DNA of 40,873 nt from an uncultured Verrucomicrobiota bacterium (GTDB lineage: Bacteria > Verrucomicrobiota > Verrucomicrobiia > Chthoniobacterales > SZAS-18), in NCBI GenBank assembly GCA_937859745.1, contig CALMAQ010000187.1, forward strand, positions 1 through 40,873, read 5' to 3'. The stretch's first letter is position 1; each line of letters starts with the position of its first letter. The position numbers and the translations under genes are program-made. Positions 17,906-34,408 of the stretch are shown here, one piece after another. A model generated the notes under the pieces. The model was not told the origin of the DNA. It was given only the letters and a program-made list of their open reading frames with translations, and searched no databases.

Positions 17906-19378
17906 GTGAGCGGTGAAACTGATCGAAACCAAGATGCGCTGGGTGGCCAGCACGATGTCGCGCGCGTGGCTCGCAACCATTTACTTACCGGGTTGGTTAC
18001 AATCTGCGCTGCGGAAGGATGGTCCATCCATTTGATGTCGAGGCATGGCGACTTCGTGCAAGCTGGTGAGGCGGTGAAATTTGCCGCATCAGGCGTGTTG
18101 GCTGGCATCTTTTATTGGGCAGGCGGGCGACAACTCACCCGAGTGATCTTTCCGGGAAAACAAAGTGCTTGGATTTTTTGGTCGACCACTGTGGTTTTGC
18201 GACTCGTGATGCTGCCGGTCGTGCCTGGCGATGATCTGTGGCGATATCGCTGGGAGGGCATGATCCAGCTCCACGGATTCAACCCGTACCAAGCCAGTCC
18301 GGATTCACCGATGCTGCTCCGCTTCCGGGACGCCACTTGGCTGAAGATAAACCACCGGGACTATGCCGCGATTTATCCGCCGTTGACCGAGACAGTTTTT
18401 GCGGGCATCGCCGCATCGGGCAACGCGGTGTGGAGCTACAAGGTGATCTTCGCGCTGGCGGATCTTGTCGGCATCGCCGTCTTGCGGCGGTTGCTCACCC
18501 GGTCAGGCGCAACCGCCGATCACGCGGTCTGGTACGCTTGGAATCCGTTGGCGGTCTATGCGTTTGCCGGTGCGGCGCACTTCGACAGCCTGATGATCCT
18601 GGCGTTGCTGGGAGCGGTTTGTACGCTGGACGAATGCCTGCGCGCACGCATGCCTTTCAGCGGTGGCAGCGATCCGCCCGGCGCTTCTAATCTTTATTGG
18701 GCGAGTGCGGGGCTACTTGGACTAGCCGTCGCCTTGAAGATCGCCCCATTGGCATTGGTGCCGGTCTGGGCATTTGCCGTTCATTCTTGGCACCGGGTGA
18801 CAGGATTGCTTGCCTTGACCATCGGGCCGCTCGCTGTCTCGGCGCTCGCGTACGGCTATCCCGCCACACCGGTATTTGCACCCCTGCGACAATTCGGCAA
18901 TGGCTTCCGCGTCAACGATCCGGTCTGGTGGCTCGTGGAGGCCATGGTGTGGCCGAACCCCTCGGGAAGTAATGGTTTCTACGGCGGTTGCGCTCTGGTG
19001 GTGTGTCTCGCTCTGGCGTGCTGGTTCCGGAACGACTGGCGACGCGGACTGTTCTGGGTGTGGAGTGCGGCACTTCTACTGAGTCCAGTGGTCCACGCTT
19101 GGTACGTGGTCTGGGTGCTTCCGTTGGCGGCGTGGCGCGGTGCGGACGCGCGGGCGTGGTTCGTGTTTTCCATCAGCACGTTTGGGTACTTCCTGCTCTG
19201 GGAGGTGAACCATGCGAGCGGCAAGGCATGGCAAGAGCCGCTCTGGCTGCGACTTGCCATCCTGTTGCCGCCGTTGCTGGCACTGACGTGGAGGAAAATT
19301 GTCCGGCGGCTCAACGACGGCGCTGGCAAAGGGGAGTCAAAGCCATTGAATTCCGACGGCTCCGCAACGACAAGTTAA
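17906..19378 (+). CDS. GT-C fold polytopic glycosyltransferase (GT87/DUF2029-like)
   Basis: This 490-residue membrane protein has about ten hydrophobic segments. The first extracytoplasmic loop carries VVPGDDLWRYRWEGMIQLHGFNPYQ, where the Asp pair and the RWEG...NPY pattern are typical of GT-C mannosyltransferase-like enzymes that use polyprenyl-phosphate sugars. YAWNPLAVYAFAGAAHFDSLM follows, as in that family. The start is a GTG at 17906; later starts would cut the first membrane helix. It runs 4 bp ahead of the GT2 gene, which could supply a lipid-linked sugar. It is the first gene of the arsenic-associated block. Its acceptor is unknown. Confidence 0.78.
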   Translation: MSGETDRNQDALGGQHDVARVARNHLLTGLVTICAAEGWSIHLMSRHGDFVQAGEAVKFAASGVLAGIFYWAGGRQLTRVIFPGKQSAWIFWSTTVVLRLVMLPVVPGDDLWRYRWEGMIQLHGFNPYQASPDSPMLLRFRDATWLKINHRDYAAIYPPLTETVFAGIAASGNAVWSYKVIFALADLVGIAVLRRLLTRSGATADHAVWYAWNPLAVYAFAGAAHFDSLMILALLGAVCTLDECLRARMPFSGGSDPPGASNLYWASAGLLGLAVALKIAPLALVPVWAFAVHSWHRVTGLLALTIGPLAVSALAYGYPATPVFAPLRQFGNGFRVNDPVWWLVEAMVWPNPSGSNGFYGGCALVVCLALACWFRNDWRRGLFWVWSAALLLSPVVHAWYVVWVLPLAAWRGADARAWFVFSISTFGYFLLWEVNHASGKAWQEPLWLRLAILLPPLLALTWRKIVRRLNDGAGKGESKPLNSDGSATTS

Positions 19379-19382
19379 CGCC

Positions 19383-20240
19383 ATGCCGCACCGCCATGCT
19401 CGACGATCACTCCCTTCGTCGTCGGTGCGTCGAATCGCCCTGATTTTGCCCGCGTGCCATGAGGAGGAAACCATCGGGCCGGTGCTCGATGAACTGCGCG
19501 ACAAACTCGATTCCGGGCGGGAATGGATCGTCGCCGTGGGTGTCAACGGCTCTCCCGTCGGGGCGGACCGCACCGCTGCTCTTGCCCGCCAGCATCCGTT
19601 GCGTCCGGTGGTGGCCGAAACGCCCGCGCAGGGCTACGGCTTCGGGTGTCAGGCGGTAATCGACCGACTGGGAGAAATCGGAATCATCCCCGACGCCTAC
19701 ATTTTTTTCGCCGCCGACGGTGCCAATGATCCGTTGGACCTAGCCCGGCTCTTGGCTGCCTACGAGCGCGGCAGCGACTTCGTGCTCGGTTGCCGTACCC
19801 GGTTTCGGCAACGTGGAAACATCGCCGTCATGGGTTGGTCTCACCTGCTCGCCAACCGTTTGCTGGGCGCATGGTGCGGATGGCTGACGCGCCGTTGGTT
19901 CCACGACATTGGTCCGTTGCGGCTGATCGAGCGCGCCTTGTTCCATCGTCTTTGCTTGCGCGAATGGACCTTCGGCTGGACCATTGAGGCACAGGTAGTC
20001 GCCGCGCAACTTGGGACCGTGATGACGGAGGTCCCCGTGAGCGAACGCCCCCGCTTGGCCGGACAGCAAAAGGTGTCCAAAGTCAACTGGTGGCGTACCC
20101 TTTCCATCGGCTGGCAAATTGCGCGGGCTGGCTGGCGCGCGAGTTGTCGTCCCCTGGCGTATATCCAGGAGCGCACCTCGGTTCCCGCTCGGGATGAGAA
20201 TTTGCCCGGCCGCATTTCCGAACCCGCCGACGTGCGCTGA
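19383..20240 (+). CDS. Family 2 glycosyltransferase (DPM-like)
   Basis: The GT-A fold signatures are RIALILPACHEEETIGPVLDEL and the sugar-nucleotide site FFAADGANDPLDLARLL. A later GNIAVMGWSHLLANRLLG and the HDIGPLRLIERALF motif are as in dolichol/polyprenyl-phosphate sugar synthases. There is no C-terminal membrane domain, so it is probably peripheral. The gene begins four bases after the GT-C gene ends, implying one operon. A plausible role is to load a sugar onto a lipid carrier for the GT-C partner; whether this serves arsenosugar lipids is inference. Confidence 0.8.
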   Translation: MPHRHARRSLPSSSVRRIALILPACHEEETIGPVLDELRDKLDSGREWIVAVGVNGSPVGADRTAALARQHPLRPVVAETPAQGYGFGCQAVIDRLGEIGIIPDAYIFFAADGANDPLDLARLLAAYERGSDFVLGCRTRFRQRGNIAVMGWSHLLANRLLGAWCGWLTRRWFHDIGPLRLIERALFHRLCLREWTFGWTIEAQVVAAQLGTVMTEVPVSERPRLAGQQKVSKVNWWRTLSIGWQIARAGWRASCRPLAYIQERTSVPARDENLPGRISEPADVR

Positions 20241-20266
20241 CGTCCTCCCGCAAGGCTTACTGTTTT

Positions 20267-22699
20267 ATGCCGATCCCCTCCGTGCTCGCCAAAGTTTTCC
20301 TTCCGATCACCGGCTACACGCATTGGCTGCACACGCGCTGGCCGGCGGGCACGGTGGAGCATCTGCCGGAGGTTGGTCCCGACGGCGAAACAAAATTGCC
20401 GGGCGTGCGGATCGTCGGCGATCTGAGCGGCATCCCGCTGCTAAAATTTTCCGCCGACACCGGGGCGCGGGCGGTGAGGGCGATTCTGCGTGAACCAGAC
20501 TTCAAAAAATCGGGCGGCGGCAACAAAGATACGCTTGACCTTGCCATCCTCGGCGGCGGCGTTTCGGGGATTTCGGCGGCGTTGGAAGCGAAGAAAGCCG
20601 GGTTGAAGTTTCAGGTGTTCGAAGCGGCAGAGCCGTTCACGACCATCGTCAATTTTCCGAAGGCCAAGCCGATCTACACTTATCCTACCGACATGATCCC
20701 GTCGGGGGAGATGCAGTTCCACGCCGATATCAAGGAGGCATTGGTCGAAGAATTAGAGCGGCAACGCAAAGACGCAGGGATCGAGGTGACGAACGCGCGC
20801 GCGGACCGGGTCGAGTCGAATCGTGATGGGGTGACGGTCCACTTTGCCGGTGACAATCCACTACCCGATGCGAAGGCGCGCCGGGTGATTGTCGCTATTG
20901 GCCGAAGCGGCGATTTTCGGCGTCTCGGCGTGCCGGGCGAAGACTCCGACAAAGTGGCCAACCGGCTGCACGATCCCGCTGACTTTGCCGGGAAGAACGT
21001 TCTGGTGGTCGGCGGCGGCGACTCGGCATTGGAAACCGCAATTGCGTTGGGTGGAGCAGGTGCACGCGTGACGTTGAGCTACCGCAAGAAAGAGTTCAAC
21101 CGACCCAAGAGTGAGAACGTCGAGAAGCTCAAGAAGCTGGGGTGCGAACCCGACGCAGGGGGGCAGGTGGAGCCGCCGCAATCCAACAAGGCAGGCACCG
21201 CCGCGACGACGGCCACGCAAAATGGCAAGAAAGGCGGCGCGCTCGCGCTCGCGCTGGGCAGCGAGGTGGTTCGCATCGAAGCGGCCAGCGTCACGCTCAA
21301 GGACGAAAACGGCGGGCGCACGATGGACAACGACGCCGTGTTCACGATGATTGGCCGGGATGCGCCGTTGGAGTTTTTCCGCCGCTCGGGGCTGCCGATC
21401 CGCAACGAATGGACGTGGTGGCGCGTGCTCGGGTGCGTGGCGTTCGTCTTGTTTTGCTTCGCCTTCTACCATTGGAAGGGCGGGCACCCGCAGGAACTGA
21501 CGTTCGGCGGAAAATCGCTCCAGCAGATTGCCGGGGAACGCCATTGGTTCCCGCTCAACCTGCCGGGCGTGTTGGAACGCTCCGGGGGAAGGCTTGCGGA
21601 GTGGTCCAACCGCGAAGGAAATCTCCTCCACACGATCAAACTGGGGCTGGGTGACGCATCGTGGTACTACGGGTTCCTCTATTCTGTCGTCGTGGTCATC
21701 TTCGGAATCCGTCGTATCCGCCGCCGACGGACGCCTTACGTGAAGTGGCAGACGATCACGCTGATGGCGATCCAGGTCGTGCCCCTCTTCCTGCTGCCGG
21801 ACCTCCTCTTGCCGTGGATGGGCCGCAACGGTTGGTTCGGGCCTGGACATCCGTTGCGCGGGCTGGCCGATCACCTTTTCGAGAGCTACGACGGCATGCG
21901 CGGCCACGAACGCGCGTACTGGCGCGCCATCGGCTTCCTGCTCGCGTGGCCGCTGCTCATCTACAACGTGTTCACGGAACAACCCAACTACGCCTGGCTG
22001 GGCATCTCCTTCGTGCAGACGTTCATGATTATCCCATTCATCGTCTGGCGCTGGGGCAAGGGAGCCTATTGCGGCTGGCTCTGCACTTGCGGCGCGCTGG
22101 CTGAAACCCTCGGCGACGCCCAGCGCCGCAAGATGCCCCACGGCTCCGGCTGGAACCGCCTGAACATGCTCGGGCAGGTCGTCCTCGCGTTCGCTTTCGC
22201 GCTTCTGGGCCTGCGCGTCGCGGGCTGGGTGATGGGTCCGCAGTCGCTGCCGTCCGCGTGGTTCAAGCGCGGTTTCGAGACGATCCCGTATTTCAATTAC
22301 CAATGGGGCGTCGATCTGTTCCTGAGCGGCGTGCTGGGAATCGGATTGTACTTCTCGTTCAGCGGGCGGACGTGGTGCCGGTTCGCCTGCCCGCTGGCGG
22401 CGCTGATGCACATCTACGCGCGGTTTACGCGGTTCCGCATCTTCGCGGACAAAAAGAAATGCATCTCGTGCAACGTCTGTACGAGTGTCTGTCATCAGGG
22501 CATCGACATCATGAGCTTTGCCAACAAAGGCGAGCCGATGGCCGACCCGCAATGCGTGCGTTGTTCGGCCTGCGTGCAGGAATGCCCCACGGGCGTGCTT
22601 TCGTTCGGACGCTACGGCGGCAACGACGGCAAGGAAATCCTCCTCGACTGCCTGCCCGCCTCGCCCGTGCTCATGAAGGAACACGACCGAGGCAAATAG
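20267..22699 (+). CDS. FAD/NAD(P)-binding oxidoreductase fused to a membrane polyferredoxin
   Basis: An 810-residue fusion. Residues ~85-385 are a thioredoxin-reductase-like flavoprotein: AILGGGVSGISAALEAKKAG for FAD and VLVVGGGDSALETAIALG for NAD(P), without an obvious CxxC redox pair. Residues ~388-680 form several membrane helices with CGWLCTCGAL and CRFACPLAALM, as in NapH/NosR/CcoG-type membrane ferredoxins. The end carries two [4Fe-4S] motifs (CISCNVCTSVCHQG and CVRCSACVQECPTG). It probably passes electrons from NAD(P)H across or into the membrane. The partner may be the exported molybdoenzyme at 26389, which has no other electron-transfer subunit here. The nucleoside hydrolase follows after four bases. 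Confidence 0.82.
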   Translation: MPIPSVLAKVFLPITGYTHWLHTRWPAGTVEHLPEVGPDGETKLPGVRIVGDLSGIPLLKFSADTGARAVRAILREPDFKKSGGGNKDTLDLAILGGGVSGISAALEAKKAGLKFQVFEAAEPFTTIVNFPKAKPIYTYPTDMIPSGEMQFHADIKEALVEELERQRKDAGIEVTNARADRVESNRDGVTVHFAGDNPLPDAKARRVIVAIGRSGDFRRLGVPGEDSDKVANRLHDPADFAGKNVLVVGGGDSALETAIALGGAGARVTLSYRKKEFNRPKSENVEKLKKLGCEPDAGGQVEPPQSNKAGTAATTATQNGKKGGALALALGSEVVRIEAASVTLKDENGGRTMDNDAVFTMIGRDAPLEFFRRSGLPIRNEWTWWRVLGCVAFVLFCFAFYHWKGGHPQELTFGGKSLQQIAGERHWFPLNLPGVLERSGGRLAEWSNREGNLLHTIKLGLGDASWYYGFLYSVVVVIFGIRRIRRRRTPYVKWQTITLMAIQVVPLFLLPDLLLPWMGRNGWFGPGHPLRGLADHLFESYDGMRGHERAYWRAIGFLLAWPLLIYNVFTEQPNYAWLGISFVQTFMIIPFIVWRWGKGAYCGWLCTCGALAETLGDAQRRKMPHGSGWNRLNMLGQVVLAFAFALLGLRVAGWVMGPQSLPSAWFKRGFETIPYFNYQWGVDLFLSGVLGIGLYFSFSGRTWCRFACPLAALMHIYARFTRFRIFADKKKCISCNVCTSVCHQGIDIMSFANKGEPMADPQCVRCSACVQECPTGVLSFGRYGGNDGKEILLDCLPASPVLMKEHDRGK

Positions 22700-22703
22700 C
22701 CCG

Positions 22704-23621
22704 ATGGACGTCTGGATCGACACCGACCCGTCCATCGGCGTGCCACTTCACGAAGCCGACGACGGCTTCGCGTTGATCCAGGCATTCCACAGCCCCGAAC
22801 TTCACCTCCGGGGAATCAGCACGACCTACGGCAACGCCGGTCTTGCCACGACCACGCGCATCACCCGCGAAATGGCCGCGCGTTTCGGCGGTCCCGCCGG
22901 GATCAACGACACCCACGTCTTCCCCGGAGCTGCCTCCGCCCACGATCTGGGAAAACCCACCGCCGCCACCGAAGCCCTCCGCGCCGCGCTCGCCGAACGC
23001 CCGCTCACCTACCTCGCCCTCGCGCCGCTGACCAACCTCGCCACGTTCCTCACGCTCCACCCCGAGGCCGCGCGCCGCATCGAGCGCGTCATCTTCGTCG
23101 GCGGGCGCACCCCCGGCGTCCGCTTTCGCGCCGGACGCTGGAACCCCTACGAATTCACCGACGGCAATTTTCACAAGGACAACGCCGCCGCGGCGATCCT
23201 CCTGGCCGTCGGCTCGCCGTTGACGCTCGTGTCTGTGGAATGCGCCCTCCAACTCCTCCTCACCCCGCGCGAACTCACCCGCCTCGGCCGCGAGGGCGGC
23301 GATCCCGGCTGTTACCTCGCCACGAAAGCCCGCCTCTGGATGAATCTCTGGTGCTTCTGCTTCGCCGTGCCGGGCGCGGCGATCTTCGATTGTTTCGCCA
23401 TCCTGGCCGCGACGCACCCGTACCTGCTGGCAAGCGAGAAACGTTACGCGCAGATTTCTCCGGCGACCCATCATGACCAAGTGCCAACACCCCGGCAGAT
23501 TCATCTGATGGCGAGCCGCGAACCGCCAACATCGGGCGAGAGGGCGGTGACTTTTTGCTCCGAACCACTCTCCGAAGCACGCGAGGTGATCCTTGCGCGG
23601 CTGCTAGGCGCTACGGGTTGA
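22704..23621 (+). CDS. Nucleoside hydrolase (IUNH-like)
   Basis: The start MDVWIDTDPSIG and the DDGFALIQAFHSPEL segment match the DTDxGxDDxxAL Ca-binding pocket of inosine-uridine nucleoside hydrolases, with a short insertion. GISTTYGNA, TYLALAPLTNLATFL and FTDGNFHKDNAAAAILL continue the family pattern, and a Ca/ribose-binding region is near the end. The enzyme would hydrolyse an N-glycosidic bond. In an ArsS/ArsM cluster the logical substrate is 5'-deoxy-5'-dimethylarsinoyl-adenosine, releasing adenine; this is inference. The stop overlaps the convergent arsS gene by 11 bases. Confidence 0.83.
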   Translation: MDVWIDTDPSIGVPLHEADDGFALIQAFHSPELHLRGISTTYGNAGLATTTRITREMAARFGGPAGINDTHVFPGAASAHDLGKPTAATEALRAALAERPLTYLALAPLTNLATFLTLHPEAARRIERVIFVGGRTPGVRFRAGRWNPYEFTDGNFHKDNAAAAILLAVGSPLTLVSVECALQLLLTPRELTRLGREGGDPGCYLATKARLWMNLWCFCFAVPGAAIFDCFAILAATHPYLLASEKRYAQISPATHHDQVPTPRQIHLMASREPPTSGERAVTFCSEPLSEAREVILARLLGATG

Positions 23622-24588
23622 CAAGCGCACCGCCGCAACTGCTCCCGGCTCCGGCGGTGCAGGCGTAGCAATGGTCGCCGGTGAGGATCTCCCGGTTCTC
23701 CACCAGCGCGGGGTCAAGATCCCACAGCGACAGACCACGTCCGCCCTGCCCATCGCGCCATTGCATCTTGAGCATCTGGTTGAAGTCGCAGTCGAACACC
23801 TCGCCCGTCCAACTCACGTTGATCGTGTCCCGGCACATCAGCCCCTCGACCGCCGCCGGATTGAACGATTCCACCAGCAAATCCATGTACTGCCCGAGCT
23901 GGTTGCTGTGGCGCAGGTAGGAGGCGAACCGGCTCACGGGAACGTTGGTGATCGTGTAGAGACGGTTGAACACGATGCCGAAATGCGCCCTGAGTTCGCG
24001 CTTGTAGTCCTCTTCCAGTTCCGCCTGCGGACCGGGCAGGGAAATGCCCTGCGGATTGTAAACAAGGTTCAGCGGCAACGCCTCGTCGCGTCCGTAGCCG
24101 AGGCGGTTGAGCAGTTGGAGCGCCTTGATGCTCGCGTCGAACACGCCGTCGCCGCGCTGGGCGTCCACGTTCGCCACCGAATAACACGGCATCGACGCCA
24201 CGATCTCCACGCGGCGCTCGGCCAGGAACTCGGCCATGCCGTCGAAGGCGGGTTCGAGCAGGATCGTCAGGTTGCAGCGGTCCATGACATGGCGGCGCGG
24301 AGTCATGGACGTGAGACGTTCGACGAAGTAGCGGAAGTCGGGGATCATCTCGGGCGCGCCGCCGGTCAGATCGACCACAGGGATGTCGGTGTGTTCGAGC
24401 CAGCCGAGGATGCGGTCGGCGGTCTCGCGCGTCATGATCTCCTTGCGCTTGGGGCCCGCGTTGACGTGGCAATGGGCGCACGTCAGGTTGCAAAGCTTGC
24501 CGACGTTAACCTGGAGGACTCTCGTGCGTGTCCGCCGCAACGGGGCGTTGTGACCGGCCAAGGTGGTGTCGAACCGGTTGAGAGCCAT
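23611..24588 (-). CDS. arsS: Arsenosugar biosynthesis radical SAM protein ArsS
   Basis: The radical-SAM motif is CNLTCAHCHVNAG (CxxxCxxC). LTGGAPEM is the SAM-binding GGE-like strand, and MDRCNLTILLEP and CDFNQMLKMQW follow. The C-terminus CYACTAGAGSSCGGALV is the ArsS (DUF3641/TIGR04167) signature. In many homologues the Cys of SSCGG is selenocysteine; here it is Cys. ArsS transfers the 5'-deoxyadenosyl group of SAM to dimethylarsenic, giving the arsenosugar precursor. At 325 residues it is full length. It is divergent from the PiT gene with 140 bp between them and convergent with the nucleoside hydrolase. Confidence 0.95.
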   Translation of the reverse strand: MALNRFDTTLAGHNAPLRRTRTRVLQVNVGKLCNLTCAHCHVNAGPKRKEIMTRETADRILGWLEHTDIPVVDLTGGAPEMIPDFRYFVERLTSMTPRRHVMDRCNLTILLEPAFDGMAEFLAERRVEIVASMPCYSVANVDAQRGDGVFDASIKALQLLNRLGYGRDEALPLNLVYNPQGISLPGPQAELEEDYKRELRAHFGIVFNRLYTITNVPVSRFASYLRHSNQLGQYMDLLVESFNPAAVEGLMCRDTINVSWTGEVFDCDFNQMLKMQWRDGQGGRGLSLWDLDPALVENREILTGDHCYACTAGAGSSCGGALVNP

Positions 24589-24728
24589 TGCTCAAGCTAC
24601 GACCCGGGGAGGTTTCTGGCAAGGAGGACGACGCCCGATGCATCCAGCGGCGCGATTTCACCGGATTGCAACAGAATCGTCACAATTCACTGGTCGCCAG
24701 CGGACAAGTTCACTACATCAGAAACGCC

Positions 24729-25859
24729 ATGATCTTCATCCTGCTTCTCCTTGCCACGTGTTTCCTGGCGTTTTCCAACGGTGCGAACGACAACTTCAAG
24801 GGTGTCGCCTCCATCTACGGCAGCGGCACGGCGGGTTACAAGGTGTCGATCTCGTGGGCAACCGCGACGACCTTCGCCGGGTCGATCACCTCAATCCTTC
24901 TCGCGCAGGCACTGCTGAAGAAATTTTCCGGCAAGGGGTTGGTGCCAGACTCACTCGTCGGATCGGAGTATTTTCTTTTGGCGGTGACGCTCGGCGCGGG
25001 GCTGACCGTCATCCTCGCCACGCGGCTGGGTTTTCCCATTTCCACGACCCACGGTTTGCTGGGTGCGCTGATCGGTGGTGGATGGGCAGCGGTGGGTTTC
25101 GGCGGGGTGGACCTCAGCGCGCTCGGGAAAAGCTTTGTGATACCGCTGCTGCTCAGTCCGGTCATCGCCGTCGCGCTGGGTGCGTTCCTGTACGTGATCT
25201 TTCACTCCGTGCGCTACCTGCTGCGCATCCCGAAGGAATGGTGCGTGTGCATCGGCCAGGAAACGCGCGTTTCGCCGATGCCTGCCGCGGACGGGATGCT
25301 GGCCATGCGCACGATGACCGCGCCGCTGTTGGCGGTAGAGGGTGAAACCATCACCAGTTGCCAGGAACGCTACGGCGGCGCGGTTGCCGGCGTGGACGCG
25401 CAAACGCTCGTCGACACGGGCCATTTCCTGAGCGCGGGCGTGGTCTCCTTCGCGCGTGGCCTCAACGACACGCCGAAAATGGCGGCACTCCTGCTGCTGG
25501 TAAAATGGCTCACGCCCGCGTCGGAGATCGGCATTGTGGCGGCGGCCATCGCCTTCGGCGGGCTGCTCGGGGCACGCCGTGTGGCGGAGACGATGAGCCA
25601 CAAGATCACGTCGCTCAATCCGGGGCAGGGTTTCACGTCCAACCTGACGACGGGGATCCTCGTCATCCTGGCGAGCACGTATGGGTTGCCGGTCTCGACG
25701 ACCCACGTTTCGGTGGGCGCGCTGTTCGGCATCGGCGTGACGACGGGGCAGGCAAACGTCAAGACGGTCATGGGCATCGTGCTGTCGTGGATCGTCACGC
25801 TGCCCTGCGCCGCGTTGATCGCGGGAACGATTTATTTCATGGTCAGCAAATTGCACTAA
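24729..25859 (+). CDS. PiT-family inorganic phosphate transporter
   Basis: I start at ATG 24729; the longer ORF start at 24588 would overlap the arsS start. The duplicated PiT signature is clear: [20 protein letters not shown] and [17 protein letters not shown], with [16 protein letters not shown] and [18 protein letters not shown]. It has about ten membrane helices and ~376 residues. PiT transporters import metal-phosphate and also arsenate, so in this cluster it may feed arsenic to the pathway. It is co-oriented with the arsenate reductase, 7 bp apart. Confidence 0.9.
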
Positions 25860-25866
25860 CCCGGCC

Positions 25867-26301
25867 ATGGCAAAGCAGAAAGTCCTGTTCGTCTGCGTCC
25901 ACAACAGCGCGCGCAGCCAGATGGCCGAAGCGTTCCTCAACGGAATGGGTGGCGACCGCTACGAGGCGGAAAGCGCAGGGATCGAACCGGGCAAGCTCAA
26001 CCCCGTGGTCGTCGAGGTGATGCGCGAAGCGGGGATCGATCTCGCCGGATGACCGACGAAATCCGTTGCGTCGATGATCGAGCGCGGCCCGTATTTCGAC
26101 TGCGTCGTGACCGTTTGCGACGAGACCAGCGCGGAACATTGCCCGGCCTTTCCGGGACCAGCCCGGCGGCTCCATTGGCCTTTCGCGGACCCGTCGAGCT
26201 TCACCGGCACCCCCGAGGAAAAACTGGCCGGCACGCGGCAGGTGCGTGATTCCATTCGTGAACGCATCGAAGCGTGGTGCGCTGCCGATGAAAACGCATA
26301 G
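25867..26301 (+). CDS. arsC: Thioredoxin-type arsenate reductase ArsC with an in-frame TGA at codon 62
   Basis: One frame encodes an LMW-phosphatase-like Ars[20 protein letters not shown] (P-loop with the nucleophilic Cys), [12 protein letters not shown] and, after the TGA at 26050-26052, [34 protein letters not shown] with the two redox Cys. Without the TGA it would be a normal 144-residue enzyme. The family normally has a variable residue at the TGA position, and no catalytic Cys is missing, so selenocysteine is not expected. A CGA to TGA nonsense change or a sequence error is simplest. The TGA sits in a hairpin (26048-26080). Translation could restart at ATG 26074, but that lacks the nucleophile. 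It follows the PiT gene and precedes the molybdoenzyme. Confidence 0.85.
26048..26080 (+). other. Hairpin spanning the in-frame TGA of arsC
   Basis: CGACG (26054-26058) pairs with CGTCG (26069-26073) around a 10-nt loop. The flanks GAT and ATC extend the stem with two mismatches, so 9 of 11 pairs form. Bacterial SECIS elements normally have the loop further downstream of the UGA, so this is a weak match. Confidence 0.3.
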
Positions 26302-26388: not shown

Positions 26389-28986
26389 ATGGCTTCTCCC
26401 GATGATCTCTCCGGCAGCGGGGTTTCCCGCCGCAAGTTCCTGCGCGAATCGCTGCTGGGCGCGGGTGCGCTCGGCACCCTTGGGCTGGCTCCCGCCTCTG
26501 CCCCCGCGGCCAACGAAGGCAACTACCCGGCGACGGGCGACGCGGCGAGCCAGCAGTTTGATTTCACGAAGGCTTCGAGCGCGCTCCAGGCCGACCGGGT
26601 GGTGGACAGTGCCTGTCAGTTCTGCAATTCGCTCTGCCGTCTGAAAGTCCACCTCAAGGATGGCCGGATCATTGATGTGACCGGTGAAACCGCTGATCCC
26701 GTCCAGGCCGGGGGCCTGTGCGTCAAGGGTGAACAACTCATGACCCAACTCGTCTACAACCGTTTCCGGTTGAAGACGCCGCTCAAGCGGCTGGACGGTG
26801 AAAAAGGTTCGCCGGACTCGCGTTTCGAGCCGTGTTCGTGGGACGAGGCCCTCGACATGGTTGCCAGGAAGTTGCTTTCCCTGCGAGATGCAGGCGAGGC
26901 TCACACGGTTGCCAACAAGACCAGCGGCCGGCTAGCGCGGGGCGTTGGCTCGTTGGCGGGCCGATTCTTCACCTTGCTCGGCAGTCCCAACGACACAGAC
27001 GTAGGCCCGGTGTGCAACGACGCGGGCGGCAACGCGCTGGCCTGGACCTTCGGCCTCGGCAATTTCACCAACGGCTACGGCAAGGATGAATCCACCGGCA
27101 AGGAAGACCTTGGCTCGGCCAGATTTTTCCTGTTTTTCGGCACCAATCAGGCCGAAACGCACCCGGTCACCTTTTCCTACCTGCTGCGTTCGCGGGCCGC
27201 AACCGGCGCGAAGCTCGTCGTGGTCGACCCGCGCCTGACGCCCACCGGCGCGCAGGCCGATGCCTGGATCGCGCCGAAGCCCGCCACCGACCTTGCGCTG
27301 GTGCTGGCGATGCTCCATCACATCATTGACCGGGGATTGTACGACGCGGCATTCGTCGAAAAATGGGTGCTCGGGTTCGAGGAATTGCGGCGGCACGTCA
27401 CGGAAAAAGGTTACACCCCTGACTGGGCGGCGGGTGTCACCGGCTTGCCAGCGGCGACCATCCGTCAACTGGCCGAGGATTATGCGACGGCCAAGCCCGC
27501 TGCCATCTTCTGCAACGCCGGAATTTCGCACCAGATCGGCGCTTTCGACACCTACCGCACGCTCGCGTTTTTGGCGGCGATCACGGGCAACGTTGGCGTC
27601 AACGGCGGTGGGTGCAACTTCATGCACAACACCTGGCCGGGCGACCTGAAGCTGCCGGCCGTCGGCCCGGTGGCAACGGCCAAGCCCGCGCCCGCGCTGC
27701 CGGAAACCGAGCACCCGGAAGTCGTTGATCAACCCGCCGCCACGCCGAAAAAGAACGCCGCTTTACCGGTTGGTCCGGATTGGTTCGCGGAGGCAATTCT
27801 CCACGGCAGGCCCTACCCGCTCAAGGCGGTGATCATGGAAGGCAACCCGGCATTGGCGTCGGCGAACGCGAACAAGGTCAAGGAAGCCTACCGCAAACTC
27901 GATTTTCTCGTGTACACCGGGCTGTTCATGGAGGAGACGGCGTACTATGCCGACATCATCCTGCCGGTGTGCAGCGGCTTCGAGATGGAGACGGTTTACA
28001 TGCGCCGAGACGACCGGGCGATCCGGTGGCAGCATCAGGCCGTCGCGCGAGTGGGGGAATCCCGGCCTGACTGGGAAATCTGGATCGACCTCGCCGCGGC
28101 GATGGCCCGGCACGATCAGGTGAACCCGCCCGAATACTGGACCGACAACCTGCGCTCGGAGTGGCGCGACTACAAAAAACTCTGGAATGTGTTCTTGGAG
28201 AACACTCCCGGCATGGGTGGCATGACCCAGGAACGCATGGCCGCGCGCACCGAACCATTACGCTGGCCGTGCCCAACGCAGGAGCATCCCGGCGTCAGCA
28301 CTCTTTACCTGGAAGGGCCCTCTTGGGAGGCCGCCGTCACTGCGTTAAACCCGGCACACAAGGGGAAACGGTTCCTCACGCCCAGCGGCAAGGTGGAGAT
28401 ATTCACACCTGAAATCGACACGAAACTAGCGCGGGTGGGGCATGGCGCGCTGCCGGTATTCTATACCCATCCGGAGGTCACAGGCGGTTTGCCGACGGTC
28501 GAGTACACCGATGAACTGGTCGAAAATCCGGTCAATCCGCAGTCCCTTACACCCAAGGTTCGTCTGGGCGTGGCAAGGAGCGGCGGGCAGTCCGCTGAGT
28601 TCCCGCTGATGGGGATAGCAGGTCGTCCGAGCGTGGTGCATTTCCACTCGTTGACGCAATGGACCTACACCGGCAAGCAGATGAACGGTGTCCGGCTGGT
28701 GCAGATTCACCCGAAAGCTGCCGGGCGCGCCGGCATTGCCAACGGCGACGAAGTGACGGTGAGGAGCCCGCGCGGATCAATCAAAGCGACCGCGCTGTTG
28801 TGGGATGGCATCCGCGAGGACACGATCTTCGTGCCGATCTCCTTCGGGCCGGCGCAGAAGATGGCCGAGGAACTCGGCACGCCGTTTTATGAGTCGGTCA
28901 ACACGTTGTTGGACGACCGGTACTTCGATAATTTGTCCGGTCAGCAGGCATTCAAGTGTTTCGCTTGCCGGGTGCAGAAGGTCTAG
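26389..28986 (+). CDS. Tat-exported molybdopterin oxidoreductase (DMSO-reductase superfamily)
   Basis: This 865-residue protein has a twin-arginine signal (SRRKFLRESLLGAGALG), so it is probably periplasmic. A [4Fe-4S] site follows (CQFCNSLC, then GGLCVKGEQ). GPVCNDAGGNALAW probably supplies a Cys ligand to Mo, as in the PsrA/PhsA/ArrA-like clade. Later molybdopterin-binding motifs are FFGTNQAETHPV, VVDPRLTPTGAQAD and VIMEGNPALAS. The C-terminal dinucleotide-binding domain includes RSPRGSI. No four-cluster ferredoxin or membrane-anchor subunit adjoins it. Reductase for sulfur, nitrogen or arsenic oxo-compounds is possible; methylated-arsenic reduction is inference from context. It is not similar enough by eye to name as ArrA or ArxA. 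Confidence 0.85.
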   Translation: MASPDDLSGSGVSRRKFLRESLLGAGALGTLGLAPASAPAANEGNYPATGDAASQQFDFTKASSALQADRVVDSACQFCNSLCRLKVHLKDGRIIDVTGETADPVQAGGLCVKGEQLMTQLVYNRFRLKTPLKRLDGEKGSPDSRFEPCSWDEALDMVARKLLSLRDAGEAHTVANKTSGRLARGVGSLAGRFFTLLGSPNDTDVGPVCNDAGGNALAWTFGLGNFTNGYGKDESTGKEDLGSARFFLFFGTNQAETHPVTFSYLLRSRAATGAKLVVVDPRLTPTGAQADAWIAPKPATDLALVLAMLHHIIDRGLYDAAFVEKWVLGFEELRRHVTEKGYTPDWAAGVTGLPAATIRQLAEDYATAKPAAIFCNAGISHQIGAFDTYRTLAFLAAITGNVGVNGGGCNFMHNTWPGDLKLPAVGPVATAKPAPALPETEHPEVVDQPAATPKKNAALPVGPDWFAEAILHGRPYPLKAVIMEGNPALASANANKVKEAYRKLDFLVYTGLFMEETAYYADIILPVCSGFEMETVYMRRDDRAIRWQHQAVARVGESRPDWEIWIDLAAAMARHDQVNPPEYWTDNLRSEWRDYKKLWNVFLENTPGMGGMTQERMAARTEPLRWPCPTQEHPGVSTLYLEGPSWEAAVTALNPAHKGKRFLTPSGKVEIFTPEIDTKLARVGHGALPVFYTHPEVTGGLPTVEYTDELVENPVNPQSLTPKVRLGVARSGGQSAEFPLMGIAGRPSVVHFHSLTQWTYTGKQMNGVRLVQIHPKAAGRAGIANGDEVTVRSPRGSIKATALLWDGIREDTIFVPISFGPAQKMAEELGTPFYESVNTLLDDRYFDNLSGQQAFKCFACRVQKV

Positions 28987-28998
28987 CGAATTGCGCTG

Positions 28999-30066
28999 AT
29001 GATTCGTAAAGCCGATTTCCTTGCCCTCCATCCCGGCGTCTATTTTCTCGATGTAACCGATGTCCCCACGCTGAACGTGTATCTCACGGACGGAGGAAGG
29101 CTGGGTCCGCTCGAAGCCTTGATCAGCGTGGAAAAAGCGGGCGAGGGCAACATGAACTGCACGGTGCGGATCCGCACCTCGTCGGGCAGTTTTATCCTCA
29201 AGCAGTCGCGTCCCTGGCTGGAGAAATATCCGCAGATTTCCGCACCGTTCGACCGGGCATTGATCGAAGCACGTTTTTATCACCTCATCTCTGCAACAGA
29301 GGCGGTGGCAAGCCGGATGCCCCGGCTGCTGTGGGCGGACGAGCAGGCGCACACCCTGGCCCTCGAAGACCTCGGCCCGGCGAGCGATTTCTTCCCGCTC
29401 TACGCGCGTCAGATCGCGCTGTCCGATACCATTCTCTCCGCCTTGGTGAATTATCTCGCCGCCCTGCACCGACTGGCACCGGAACGGGGCGAGGATCGCA
29501 AACGATTCACGAACCACGAAATGCGGGTGCTCAATCACGAGCACATGTTTGCATTGCCGCTACGCGAGCCGAATGGCCTCGATCTCGACGCTCACACGGG
29601 GACACCGGGCCTGACCGCGGTCGCTGCTTCGCTGAAGGCTGATGCCGCTTATGGGCAAGCGGTGGCTGCGTTGGGCGAGCGGTATCTGCACGGAGAGGGC
29701 GAAAATTTGTTGCACGGTGATTTTTTCCCCGGCAGCTTTCTGCGAACCGCAGCGGGTGTAAGGATCATCGACCCAGAATTCTGCTTTTGCGGTGACGCGG
29801 AGTTGGACCTGGGTGTTCTGGCCGCACATCTGTTGCTGGCCGGTGAACCTACCGACCGCGTGGAGAGCATCTTATCTCTCTACCACGCGGCGGGCGGCGG
29901 TTTTTCTTCTGCGTTGGTCCGGCAGTACGCCGGGGTCGAGATTATGCGCCGATTGATCGGCGTGGCGCAGATCCCGACTCTCAAAGCCGGCCTTGCGCGC
30001 AAGACGGATTTGCTGGCGTTGAGCCGGCAACTGCTGCTGGCACCGGAGCAATCGTTCTCCGTTTAA
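28999..30066 (+). CDS. Methylthioribose-kinase-like (APH-fold) kinase
   Basis: VEKAGEGNMNCTVRIRTSSG is the GDGNxN-type nucleotide loop of MtnK, followed by FILKQSRPWLEKYP (catalytic Lys; MtnK has VKQALPYVR) and FDRALIEARFY. The catalytic part LLHGDFFPGSF and IIDPEFCFCGDAELDLGVLAAHLLLA matches the MtnK HGD and DPEF motifs. The protein is 355 residues, slightly shorter than typical MtnK. MtnK phosphorylates C1 of 5-methylthioribose. In this cluster the freed 5-dimethylarsinoyl-ribose would be an isosteric-type substrate, so a role in activating the arsenosugar for glycosyl transfer is attractive. It starts 12 bp after the molybdoenzyme. Confidence 0.75.
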   Translation: MIRKADFLALHPGVYFLDVTDVPTLNVYLTDGGRLGPLEALISVEKAGEGNMNCTVRIRTSSGSFILKQSRPWLEKYPQISAPFDRALIEARFYHLISATEAVASRMPRLLWADEQAHTLALEDLGPASDFFPLYARQIALSDTILSALVNYLAALHRLAPERGEDRKRFTNHEMRVLNHEHMFALPLREPNGLDLDAHTGTPGLTAVAASLKADAAYGQAVAALGERYLHGEGENLLHGDFFPGSFLRTAAGVRIIDPEFCFCGDAELDLGVLAAHLLLAGEPTDRVESILSLYHAAGGGFSSALVRQYAGVEIMRRLIGVAQIPTLKAGLARKTDLLALSRQLLLAPEQSFSV

Positions 30067-30075
30067 CGCGGCTGT

Positions 30076-31236
30076 TCAACAGCAACTGTCGGCATCGCAG
30101 CAATTACTGGCCCCGGTGGTTACAGTGTAATCCTGGCCCTTCGTCTCTTTCGGGTGGCGCAGGGCAGCAGCGCGCGGTCGGTCGAATGGTTTCGCTTGCT
30201 CCAGCGGAACCGTCTCACGAGGTTCGACGAAGTCGAATTGTTCCGTGTACGGCGCCTTGCGGTACAGATTGTAGGTCTTGTCGCACACCGCGTACCGGCG
30301 TCCGCGCTCCATCCGGTGGCCGTCATCGTCGAGCACCTCCTTGAAAGGCCCCTTGTACACGACCGCCTGATTGCGTTCCAAACACGGCCCCTGCTTGCCC
30401 TTGAACGCCTCGATAGTCACCGAGCGGAACTCGATTCCCTCGACCGTTTGCCAAGGGTCCACGTCGCGCTTGAGAACTTGAATCCCATAGAATCCCGCCT
30501 GCTCGAACGCTTCAAGGAAGCCGTCTTCGGTCAACGCTCCCGAGATGCAGCCGCTCCAGAGTTCCGGGTCGTCTTGCAGGTGCGCCGGGCTGGCTTCGTC
30601 GCTGACGATGTCGGAAATCACCGCGCGACCACCGACTCGGAGCACACGGAAAATCTCCTCGAAAAGCCGTGGCTTGGATCGGGAATCCACGAGGTTGAGC
30701 ACGCAATTGCTCACCACCACGTCCACGGATTCATCCGCGACGAGCGGGTGTTTGAGCCGCAGTTCGGCGGCGAGTTCATCCGCCTTGAGGAACGAGGCGG
30801 CGTCGGTGATGGGTCGCTCGCGCAGGACGGAGTCGAAGCGTTCCAGGTCAAGACCGAGGTCCTGGATGCGCCCTTTGCGGAATTCCACGTTACCGTAGCC
30901 GATCCGCTCCGCGACCACCGGCGCGTTGCGCCGGGCCACGTCGAGCATCTCATCGGTCATGTCCACTCCGATGACCTTGCCCTGCGCGCCCACGACCTGC
31001 GCTGCAATGAAGCAGATTTTTCCCGTGCCGCTGCCCAAGTCCAGGACGGTCTCACCGGAGCACAGGTATTGGCTCGGATCGCCACAGCCGTAATCGCGCT
31101 CGATCACCTCTTGGGGGATGACCCTCAGATACTGCGGGTCGTATTCGACCGGGCAGCACAAGGCAGCCTCACGGGCCTGTGCGCCGCTGGCGTAACGTTC
31201 TTTGACGGCGGACTCCGGATTGATGGTCGTGTGCAT
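30076..31236 (-). CDS. arsM: Arsenite S-adenosylmethionine methyltransferase ArsM
   Basis: I take ATG 31236; the track ORF extends far upstream through a shadow frame. The protein has 386 residues. The SAM-binding motif VLDLGSGTGKICFIAAQVV is followed by VIGVDMTDEMLDVARRNA. The arsenite-binding cysteines of the family are present: ALCCPVEYDP, YGCGDP, VVSNCVLNLV and SGCISGAL. The C-terminus ends CCDADSCC, an extra Cys cluster. ArsM methylates As(III) to mono-, di- and trimethyl forms, the step before ArsS. It is convergent with the kinase (9 bp apart) and divergent from the DUF547 gene. Confidence 0.93.
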   Translation of the reverse strand: MHTTINPESAVKERYASGAQAREAALCCPVEYDPQYLRVIPQEVIERDYGCGDPSQYLCSGETVLDLGSGTGKICFIAAQVVGAQGKVIGVDMTDEMLDVARRNAPVVAERIGYGNVEFRKGRIQDLGLDLERFDSVLRERPITDAASFLKADELAAELRLKHPLVADESVDVVVSNCVLNLVDSRSKPRLFEEIFRVLRVGGRAVISDIVSDEASPAHLQDDPELWSGCISGALTEDGFLEAFEQAGFYGIQVLKRDVDPWQTVEGIEFRSVTIEAFKGKQGPCLERNQAVVYKGPFKEVLDDDGHRMERGRRYAVCDKTYNLYRKAPYTEQFDFVEPRETVPLEQAKPFDRPRAAALRHPKETKGQDYTVTTGASNCCDADSCC

Positions 31237-31344: not shown

Positions 31345-32073
31345 ATGAGAAAAAGCCTGCTTGCTCTGCTGCTTAGCCTTGCTTTGGTTTCGGTTTCCCG
31401 CGCGGAGGATGCCTGGACCGAGGATTACAATCGCCTGCTGGCAAAATACGTGACGCCGAGCGGGGTGAAATACGCCGTGTGGCATGACAATGCCGCCGAC
31501 CGGGCCTCGCTTGCGAAAGTAGTCGATGCCATCGCCAAAGAAAAACCCACCGGCGGCAAAGACGAAAAACTCGCTTTCTACATCAACGCTTACAACGCCA
31601 ACATCCTGGCAGGAGTGCTCGACCGGTATCCCATCAAGACGATCCGCGACATCGCCCCGCTCTTTGGCTTTTTCACACAGGATCGCATCACGGTGGCGGG
31701 CGACAAGATGAGCTTCAACCATCTGGAAAAAGACATCATCCACGGCTTCGGCGAGCCGAGGATGCATTTCGTGCTTAACTGCGCGAGCGCGAGCTGCCCG
31801 CCGCTGCTCGACAAGGCATTCGCGGCCGAAACCCTTAAAGTGGAGATGGACCGGGCGGCGACTGCCTTTCTCAACGACAACCCGCGCGGGATCGAGGTGA
31901 GCGACGGAGGCAAGAAGGTCGAGGTCTCGAAAATCTTCGACTGGTATGCCGGTGACTTTCAGGCTTCGGGGGGGGTGGTCGCCTTCATCGACAAGTACCG
32001 CCAGCCACCGTTGCGGGGCGACACCAAACTTTCTTTTCAGGATTACAACTGGAGCCTCAATGCCGCCGACTGA
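31345..32073 (+). CDS. DUF547-family exported protein
   Basis: The N-terminus is a Sec signal peptide (MRKSLLALLLSLALVSVSRA). The body carries the DUF547 signature: FYINAYNANILAGVLDRYP, FFTQDRITVAGDKMSFNHLEKDIIHGFGEPRMHFVLNCASASCPPL, then FLNDNPRG and SKIFDWYAGDF. DUF547 proteins recur in arsenosugar clusters but have no established reaction as far as I know. A metal or peptidase-like role has been suggested for the fold. It is 242 residues and overlaps the radical SAM gene by 14 bases, so translation is probably coupled. Confidence 0.85.
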   Translation: MRKSLLALLLSLALVSVSRAEDAWTEDYNRLLAKYVTPSGVKYAVWHDNAADRASLAKVVDAIAKEKPTGGKDEKLAFYINAYNANILAGVLDRYPIKTIRDIAPLFGFFTQDRITVAGDKMSFNHLEKDIIHGFGEPRMHFVLNCASASCPPLLDKAFAAETLKVEMDRAATAFLNDNPRGIEVSDGGKKVEVSKIFDWYAGDFQASGGVVAFIDKYRQPPLRGDTKLSFQDYNWSLNAAD

Positions 32074-33571
32074 CCTCGCTTCCCCGGCGGCCCTTCCGGT
32101 CGCTCCCATCGATCCTTGCATTGGCCTGCCGACGCATCCCGGCAAGTGGCGTGCCCGCTGGCAGGCGTTCCGGCATCCTATCGCGGGCGAGAAGGCCGAG
32201 TTGCTGCGTAGCCGCTGGGCGTTGTTGCCGCCCGAGCTGAAGACACCCAACCAGATCAGTGGGCGGCACCTGACCCACTGCGGATTCACGACGGGCGCGA
32301 GCTATTGCTCGTTTCATTGCACGCATTGCTACCTGCCCAAGAACGCCAATCAGGTGCCGATGCCTTCGCTGGCTCAGATGAAGGAGCAGATCGACGCCAA
32401 CCGTCGGTTCCAGGGGCCGGGCGGCGGCTTGCAACTCACCGGCGGCGACGTGGCCGACGCCTACTGGCGCAGCGGGCGGCAGGACGAACTCGTCGAGATC
32501 GTCCGTTACGCGATCAAGACGGGCCTCGTCCCGATGCTCATGACCCATGGGCAAACGCTCATTGAGCATCCGGAATTTCTGGAAAAGCTTATGGTCGAAG
32601 GTGGCTTGCGACAGGTGGCCGTCCACATCGACATGACCCAGGCCGGGCGGCATGGTTATCCCATTGGCCGGGTCAAGAGCGAGGCCGATCTGCACCCGGT
32701 CCGCGAGGCTTTCACGAAACTCGGCCTGGACCTGCGCGCAAAAACCGGGCTGCCGTTGGAGTTCGCCCATAATTGCACCGTGACGGGTCGCAACGTGGAG
32801 TTCGTGCCGGAGATCGTCCGCTGGGCCTTGGAAAGACCCGAACGCACCTACCTTTGGCGGCTCTTTTCCTTCCAGCCGGAAGCCGACACCGGGCGTACTT
32901 ATTTTTCTGCAACCCCGGCGACTCCCACCGCCGCTTGGCAAAAACTCTGCGAGGGCACGGGGCTGCCGCTGGAACGGGAATTTTCTATTTTTGGCCACCC
33001 CGACTGCAACTCGTGGACGCCGTTGCTCGTTTCGCGGCGGTCAGGGCGTTTCATCGTGTTTCCGCCGCAGGATGCGCGCACGAAACAGCTTTACGAGGAG
33101 TTGCTCGCCAGGGTGGGCGGCGTTTCCTTCGTGTCTGACGACGCGCGTACAACGCCCTTCCGGTTGCTCGGGATTTTGTTCCAAAATCCGCTGCTCATCG
33201 TTCGACTGCTCGCGCATCTTTCCTGGCTTCTGCTCACGGGAAGAATCCCCGCCGAGTTCATCGGCGCGCTTGCGGCGGGGAAAGCGCACACGGTCGGCTT
33301 CGGCATCCACAACTTCATGGACGCCGTCCAAGTCGCGGACGCGCCAAACAACCGGACGATCCAATCCCGGCTGGATTCCTGCGTGTTTAAGGGTGCGGTC
33401 AAGAACCGGCAAAGCGGAGAATGGGAAGCTGTTCCCATGTGCGCCATGAACCAGCAACGCTGGGGCGATGTTTACGAAGAGCGTTTGCAAGACCCGCTCT
33501 TGGCTCGCGAGGCGCAAGCGACAAGCCCGGCGTCGGCGGATCGACCCGAGTCAATCCTGGAAACACGGTAG
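32060..33571 (+). CDS. Second radical SAM protein of the arsenic cluster, function unknown
   Basis: The start ATG 32060 lies inside the end of the DUF547 gene. The radical-SAM Cys motif is CSFHCTHCYLPK (CxxxCxxC), with LQLTGGDVADAYW as the GGE-like strand. Around residues 200-400 the sequence continues as a TIM-barrel-like fold (VAVHIDMTQAGRHGYPIG). The ~150-residue C-terminal part contains DSCVFKG and CAMNQQRW but no clear SPASM cluster. At 503 residues it is longer than ArsS and unrelated to it beyond the core. Hypotheses include a methylation, carbon-carbon or lipid-modification step. It is not a copy of ArsS. Confidence 0.78.
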   Translation: MPPTDLASPAALPVAPIDPCIGLPTHPGKWRARWQAFRHPIAGEKAELLRSRWALLPPELKTPNQISGRHLTHCGFTTGASYCSFHCTHCYLPKNANQVPMPSLAQMKEQIDANRRFQGPGGGLQLTGGDVADAYWRSGRQDELVEIVRYAIKTGLVPMLMTHGQTLIEHPEFLEKLMVEGGLRQVAVHIDMTQAGRHGYPIGRVKSEADLHPVREAFTKLGLDLRAKTGLPLEFAHNCTVTGRNVEFVPEIVRWALERPERTYLWRLFSFQPEADTGRTYFSATPATPTAAWQKLCEGTGLPLEREFSIFGHPDCNSWTPLLVSRRSGRFIVFPPQDARTKQLYEELLARVGGVSFVSDDARTTPFRLLGILFQNPLLIVRLLAHLSWLLLTGRIPAEFIGALAAGKAHTVGFGIHNFMDAVQVADAPNNRTIQSRLDSCVFKGAVKNRQSGEWEAVPMCAMNQQRWGDVYEERLQDPLLAREAQATSPASADRPESILETR

Positions 33572-33625: not shown

Positions 33626-34408
33626 ATGGTAGCGCGCTTCACCTCGATGGTTGTCTCGGCGGTAACCGGTCCACGTGTGACCGCAGGTCCTCCGGAGCCA
33701 TCCGACAAGGCGGAAGCCACGATCAGTATCATCGTGCCATGCTGGCGGGGTGACGCCGTGCCGCCTTCCCTTGCAACACGCTGGCTGGAGTACCCGGGCG
33801 TCTGCGAAATCATCGTGGCAACCGCCGATAAGGAGATGGCGACACAAGACGGATTGCCCGGGTTGCGCACGATCCACTGTACCCGTCACGGCCGGGGGAA
33901 CCAGATGAACGAGGCGGCCCGCACGACGACGGGCGATATCCTGCTGTTTCACCACGCGGATACGGAGTTGGCCGCAACGCATCTGCACAGCTTGCAAATT
34001 GCGATGGCGGCTGATTCGACGCTCGGCGGCGGTGCATTCCGACGCCAGTTCGATGAGCGCCACCCGCACCTCCGTTGGCTCGAACCCTGGGAAGCACTCC
34101 GCTGCCGCCGCTTTGGTCCGCTTTTCGGCGATCAATCCATCTTCGTACGGCGAACGGTATTCGAGGCACTTGGTGGGTTCGCTGACTTCCCGTTAATGGA
34201 AGACGTGGATTTTTCCTGTCGGCTGCGGCGTCATCAAAGGATTGCCTTGCTGGAACCAGCAATCCGATCTTCCACGCGCAAGCATTTCCAGCAAGGACGT
34301 TGGCGGACAACGTTTACCAATGCTTTTTTTCTCTTACTTTTCGTTTGTGGAATGTCTCCGTCTCGCTTGCACGCTCTGTATTATCGTCACACCGCAGCGA
34401 TTGATTGA
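33626..34408 (+). CDS. TIGR04283-like arsenosugar glycosyltransferase
   Basis: The body resembles the TIGR04283 glycosyltransferases that accompany arsS: ISIIVPCWRGDAVPPSLA, TRHGRGNQMNEAARTTTGDILLFHHADTELA (HADT in place of a DxD) and FGPLFGDQSIFVRRTVFEALGGFADFPLMEDVDFSCRLRRH. The C-terminus has a hydrophobic stretch (NAFFLLLFVCGMSPS). ATG 33626 gives about 30 extra N-terminal residues; ATG 33647 is also possible. Its donor and acceptor are not established. It is the last gene of the block, 54 bp after the radical SAM gene. Confidence 0.85.
   Translation: MVARFTSMVVSAVTGPRVTAGPPEPSDKAEATISIIVPCWRGDAVPPSLATRWLEYPGVCEIIVATADKEMATQDGLPGLRTIHCTRHGRGNQMNEAARTTTGDILLFHHADTELAATHLHSLQIAMAADSTLGGGAFRRQFDERHPHLRWLEPWEALRCRRFGPLFGDQSIFVRRTVFEALGGFADFPLMEDVDFSCRLRRHQRIALLEPAIRSSTRKHFQQGRWRTTFTNAFFLLLFVCGMSPSRLHALYYRHTAAID

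Follow-up and report, generated by a model that had tools for sequence, protein, structure and literature searches.

A distinct-clade nucleoside hydrolase and an MTR-kinase-like enzyme as candidates for the step after ArsS in a Verrucomicrobiota arsenic gene island

The gene abutting arsS in the window, the 40,873-nucleotide stretch of Verrucomicrobiota DNA analysed here as a whole, encodes a nucleoside hydrolase (NH) which, paired with a kinase resembling MTR kinases, is a good candidate for the step that follows ArsS. In the route proposed, ArsM and ArsS would make 5'-deoxy-5'-(dimethylarsinoyl or dimethylarsino)adenosine. NH, predicted to be a cytoplasmic Ca-dependent enzyme from a clade of its own within the IUNH family, would hydrolyse the N-glycosidic bond of this product, yielding adenine and 5-deoxy-5-dimethylarsinoyl-ribose; the kinase would phosphorylate the freed arsenic sugar at O1, and a TIGR04283-type glycosyltransferase system would use the resulting 1-phosphate as activated sugar. 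Such a scheme calls for a kinase, since the anomeric carbon, activated in phosphorolysis, would not be activated by hydrolysis. To this reading, substrate and chemistry included, we assign a probability of about 0.45; the broader one, that NH acts on some 5'-deoxy-5'-substituted adenosine, is probable. Gene content, the operon slot and its occupation by another enzyme elsewhere, the pairing with a kinase and the altered active-site residues are observed; the substrate, the sequence of reactions, the product of the kinase and the glycosyl transfer are inferred from them.

NH and arsS are genuine genes, and each matches its family strongly (Table 1). The NH ORF (305 aa) has a GC3 of 0.81, as expected for coding DNA, and scores 115.5 bits against PF01156 (curated cut-off 34.2); the ArsS score is well above the TIGR04167 equivalog cut-off of 300, and the protein carries the motif CNLTCAHC and a Cys-rich C-terminus. 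The first-pass annotation had proposed that NH handles the ArsS product because the convergent genes overlap by 11 bp at their 3' ends, and because the Ca-site motif of NH has an insertion, a possible change of specificity. Both features are present, the overlap at 23611-23621 and the insertion in DTDPSIGVPLHEADDGFAL with about seven additional residues relative to the canonical DxDPGxDD, yet neither alone links NH to ArsS. A convergent overlap implies no common pathway and is not conserved, as the NH gene of locus L084 overlaps instead a convergent TIGR04283 gene; it has been discarded as functional evidence. The insertion is shared by all 34 NH clade members; since the majority of these lie away from arsS, it is a trait of the clade, neither ars-specific nor an adaptation to the window locus. 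The conclusion itself is plausible, and is partly supported on other grounds: replacement of NH by other enzymes in its slot, recurrence with arsS, an MTAN-like gene in another arsS cluster, and the MTR-kinase-like gene.

Table 1. Features of the NH and arsS region of the window
Feature	Position	Strand	Evidence and remarks
Membrane protein (by reading only, GT87-like), opens NH operon	17906..19378	+	homologues in arsS clusters L198, L214
GT2-type glycosyltransferase	19383..20240	+	weak TIGR04182 match, 43.7 bits; synteny kept in L071
FAD oxidoreductase / NapH-type ferredoxin fusion	20267..22699	+	4 bp upstream of NH; arsS-linked homologues in L036, L198, L208, L211
NH, distinct-clade nucleoside hydrolase	22704..23621	+	PF01156, AF2 model/Foldseek, clade signature; window copy without signal peptide
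Modified Ca-site motif D8-PSIGVPLHEA-D19D20, about 7 inserted residues, codons 8-20	22725..22763	+	34/34 clade members, 0/6 canonical relatives
F228-D229, Phe in place of group I general-acid His before last Ca-ligand Asp	23385..23390	+	clade alignment
arsS, arsenosugar radical SAM enzyme	23611..24588	-	TIGR04167 432 bits; convergent with NH
PiT-type phosphate/arsenate transporter	24720..25859	+	PF01384 207 bits; adjoins arsS in several relatives
MTR-kinase-like kinase	28999..30066	+	convergent with arsM, 9-bp gap; TIGR01767 103 bits
arsM-type arsenite methyltransferase	30076..31236	-	NF040538 336 bits, cut-off 500; longer ORF to 32289, start provisional
DUF547 protein, signal-peptide-like N-terminus	31345..32073	+	PF04784 72 bits; recurs in arsS clusters
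Second radical SAM protein (CSFHCTHC), without named family	31946..33571	+	PF04055 weak; start provisional
TIGR04283-type glycosyltransferase	33626..34408	+	174 bits, just under equivalog cut-off 182

NH is the last gene of an operon (17906-23621) that also includes genes for a membrane protein, which matches no Pfam or NCBIfam family, a GT2-type transferase and a fusion protein. The fusion joins a FAD disulfide-reductase-like domain to a NapH-type membrane ferredoxin, and recurs in Verrucomicrobiota arsS clusters. Beyond arsS are found, in order, a PiT transporter, an arsC-like gene, a molybdopterin enzyme, the kinase, arsM, DUF547, a second radical SAM gene and the TIGR04283-type gene. NH is thus the immediate neighbour of arsS, and the kinase that of arsM. 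The arsenosugar cassette named in NCBIfam (ArsS, TIGR04282, TIGR04283) is represented in the window by ArsS and the TIGR04283-type gene; neither NH nor the kinase belongs to that cassette, and no TIGR04282 homologue was found between 13601 and 34600.

The strongest argument for the function of NH comes from clusters in which another enzyme occupies its exact place. None of the four arsS-linked homologues of the FAD/NapH fusion is accompanied by NH, and in two of them (L208 and L211) the fusion is immediately followed by a gene for an MTAP-like phosphorylase, and this in turn by TIGR04282. A phosphorylase of this type is present also in the arsS cluster L204; those of L204 and L208 score about 132 bits against TIGR01694. 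The arsS gene of the planctomycete G515 overlaps, at its 5' end, with an MTAN-like gene. Three candidates for the removal of adenine are therefore found in arsS clusters, and NH would take the place held elsewhere by MTAP-like phosphorylases or by an MTAN-like nucleosidase. The last two share the PF01048 superfamily, to which NH does not belong. MTAP-like enzymes have a fold unrelated to that of NH, but the slot behind the fusion and the expected release of adenine are the same; phosphorolysis would yield the sugar 1-phosphate directly, and a kinase would be unneeded. It weighs against the ArsS product as substrate that in many arsS clusters no gene for a nucleoside-cleaving enzyme shows up within about 10 kb, and that a paralogue of NH (61%, L047) lies in the same genome away from ars genes.

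NH and arsS are found together in the window and in three further genomes, G168 (L084/L101), G527 (L104) and G392 (L223). In every case they are accompanied by DUF547, TIGR04283, the second radical SAM gene and arsM, the arsM of L104 being partly cut. On the NH tree the arsS-linked members fall at three separate places, and at least three changes are needed to account for them. The chance of finding four arsS-linked loci among 18 is about 2e-6, a rough figure which assumes independent loci and a 4-Mb genome. In the order, arsS is present in 14 of the 17 NH-positive genomes and in 53 of the 180 others (p 3e-5, by a statistic that ignores relatedness). That arsS is absent from G002, the sister genome, has been dismissed as counter-evidence, because its contig C529 breaks off within NH, at the place where arsS would start.

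The NH fold is that of a nucleoside hydrolase: the AF2 model has a pLDDT of 94.8, and its top Foldseek matches are all nucleoside hydrolases (TM about 0.79). The Ca-binding Asp residues of the DxD...DD motif and the late Asp (D6, D8, D19, D20, D229) are invariant in 40 sequences. YGN and the N168-equivalent are similarly shared with IUNH groups I, II and III (PF01156). NH departs from all three in the insertion within DxDxxxDD and at two further positions. In the clade Asp replaces Glu166, the canonical AEFN reading xDxN in the alignment with canonical relatives; in nucleoside hydrolases Glu166 and Asn160 contact the 5'-hydroxyl. The residue before the last Ca-ligand Asp, which is His in group I, Trp in group II and Cys in group III (PMC8910321), is Phe228 in NH; FD is found in 33 of the 34 clade members and WD in one, as against HD in all six canonical relatives. 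Group II enzymes rely on aromatic stacking instead of a general acid and are specific for purines, and the characterised hydrolases make very poor use of nucleosides without the 2', 3' or 5' hydroxyl (reviewed in PMC8910321). Since these handle 5'-deoxynucleosides so poorly, a 5'-substituted substrate would call for a modified pocket, and the altered motifs would suit, as far as residues can tell, a 5'-substituted purine nucleoside.

NH could also be an ordinary purine or pyrimidine nucleoside hydrolase serving base salvage, found beside arsS by chance. The PF01156 fold, the paralogue away from ars genes and the many Verrucomicrobiota clade members that are not linked to arsS, the majority, are all consistent with this. 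Recurrence in arsS clusters at three places of the tree, the operon slot, the pairing with a kinase and the non-canonical catalytic motif tell against it, and make it improbable.

The NH clade divides into a kinase-linked group and a Verrucomicrobiota group (support 98/96 and 97/94). A simple test of hydrophobicity gives some two thirds of the members a signal-peptide-like N-terminus, among which the arsS-linked NHs of L084/L101 and L104; the window NH, its near relatives and L223 have none by the same test. Exported-looking enzymes do not fit a cytoplasmic substrate, and these arsS-linked cases count against the ArsS product. Some exported-looking members adjoin a DUF547 gene (L103), an indication that the pathway may also exist in a periplasmic form. 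A plasmid search for NH retrieved only distant hydrolases (<34% identity).

The partner kinase is in the PDB matched by MTR kinases only. Its score remains well under the TIGR01767 equivalog cut-off of 275, as do those of the MTR-kinase-like kinases as a set (92-119 bits). The motifs HGD, IDPEF and RR, which have a role in MTR binding, are invariant in 21 homologues and align with 2OLC. The kinase is kept in the family of the window (G000, G002, G003, G005, G006), and its neighbours in the sister genome G002 are DUF547, TIGR04283, arsM and the second radical SAM gene. When 84,980 species were scanned with a query alignment made of Verrucomicrobiota NHs only, 19 loci came to light outside this phylum in which an MTR-kinase-like gene adjoins NH in an operon, usually at a distance ranging from a few bases to about 130. 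They belong to Acidobacteriota, Pseudomonadota, Myxococcota, Planctomycetota and Bacteroidota. The order of hydrolysis and phosphorylation, and the relatedness of the kinase to MtnK, recall MtnN/MtnK salvage; the pair differs in that the hydrolase is an IUNH enzyme, the kinases score far lower than the cut-off, and no MtnA turned up in the family of the window. The latter result covers five genomes, that of the window and four relatives, some incomplete; the kinase product is therefore not obviously destined for methionine salvage, and a role in MtnA-dependent salvage has been set aside for this locus.

An arsenic-only role of the pair is ruled out, as arsS was not found in 16 of the 19 genomes that host it. 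MtnA is present in 12 of the 19, in two as partial matches, and the pair must be older or wider than arsenosugars. The kinase-linked sister clade being mostly found in genomes that lack arsS, the ancestral substrate of NH was probably another 5'-modified adenosine. The same 16 genomes tell against the ArsS product as substrate of NH, as does the absence of the kinase from two arsS-linked NH genomes (G168 and G527). They are at the same time in keeping with a different role, in which NH removes 5'-deoxyadenosine or MTA, by-products of SAM chemistry, and the kinase takes the 5-deoxyribose or MTR set free; proximity to arsS and to the second radical SAM gene would follow from both enzymes making 5'-deoxyadenosine. 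The closeness of the kinase to MTR kinase, the occurrence of MtnA in the 12 pair genomes and the tendency of NH to track the second radical SAM gene all agree with such a role, and a DHAP shunt salvaging MTA and 5'-deoxyadenosine is already known (PMC10986504, PMC12632272). By-product salvage would however leave unexplained the operon with arsS-linked genes. MtnA is missing not only from the five family genomes but also from 7 of the 19 pair genomes, and PF01048 genes, which might serve the same purpose, occur in each of the 28 genomes tested. On balance we regard it as rather unlikely, if still a serious competitor.

The second radical SAM gene raises a further question, because NH follows it more tightly (16 of the 17 NH-positive genomes of the order) than it follows arsS, and this too speaks against the ArsS product. 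Among arsS-positive genomes the gene is found in 13 of the 14 with NH and in 9 of the 53 others. The protein is highly conserved, mostly at 60-85% identity across the order, and its gene is often beside DUF547; in L084, L080, L104 and L223 NH is divergent from the block that contains it. NH might thus act on an adenosylated product of this enzyme rather than of ArsS, much as in hopanoid synthesis adenosyl transfer is followed by adenine removal (HpnH, HpnG). The kinase-linked clade hosts no homologue of the gene, though, and in 10 genomes the gene is present without NH. The structural model is weak (pLDDT 69.5), its best fold match being GDGT-MAS at a TM of 0.46, and assignment of a reaction from the fold has been dropped. 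This substrate is accordingly held to be very doubtful.

For the ArsS product as substrate, removal of adenine and activation of the arsenic-ribose for glycoside formation were not described in the literature searched, in which subscription journals are little covered. NH and the MTR-kinase-like enzyme may, as a tentative proposal, constitute an undescribed two-step module, present in at least five phyla, that takes adenine off a 5'-deoxy-5'-substituted adenosine and phosphorylates C1. In the island of the window it would fill the steps leading from the ArsS product to arsenosugars, in replacement of the phosphorylase. If so, the enzymes of the later stages of arsenosugar synthesis in bacteria could be tested one by one. 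NH would be a hydrolase accepting 5'-deoxy-5'-substituted nucleosides, a class very poorly used by characterised members (PMC8910321), and the pair would mark a wider 5'-deoxynucleoside route in phyla that lack arsS.

Some neighbourhoods deserve mention. In an acidobacterium in which arsS was not detected, TIGR04282, TIGR04283, the kinase and NH are arranged in one row (L108:7434-10897). The NH-kinase pairs of sphingomonads (L114-L118) adjoin genes named, by reading only, TonB-receptor-like or ABC-transporter-like, as if the substrate were taken up. In the window, the arsC-type arsenate reductase frame (25867-26301, + strand) is interrupted by an in-frame TGA at 26050-26052, a position taken by Asn, His or Lys in homologues. 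Rather than encoding selenocysteine, the codon hence reflects either a nonsense mutation or an error of assembly. The molybdopterin oxidoreductase encoded at 26389-28986 (+ strand), a 71% homologue of which is found beside arsM in G005 (L046), is possibly a new arsenic redox enzyme.
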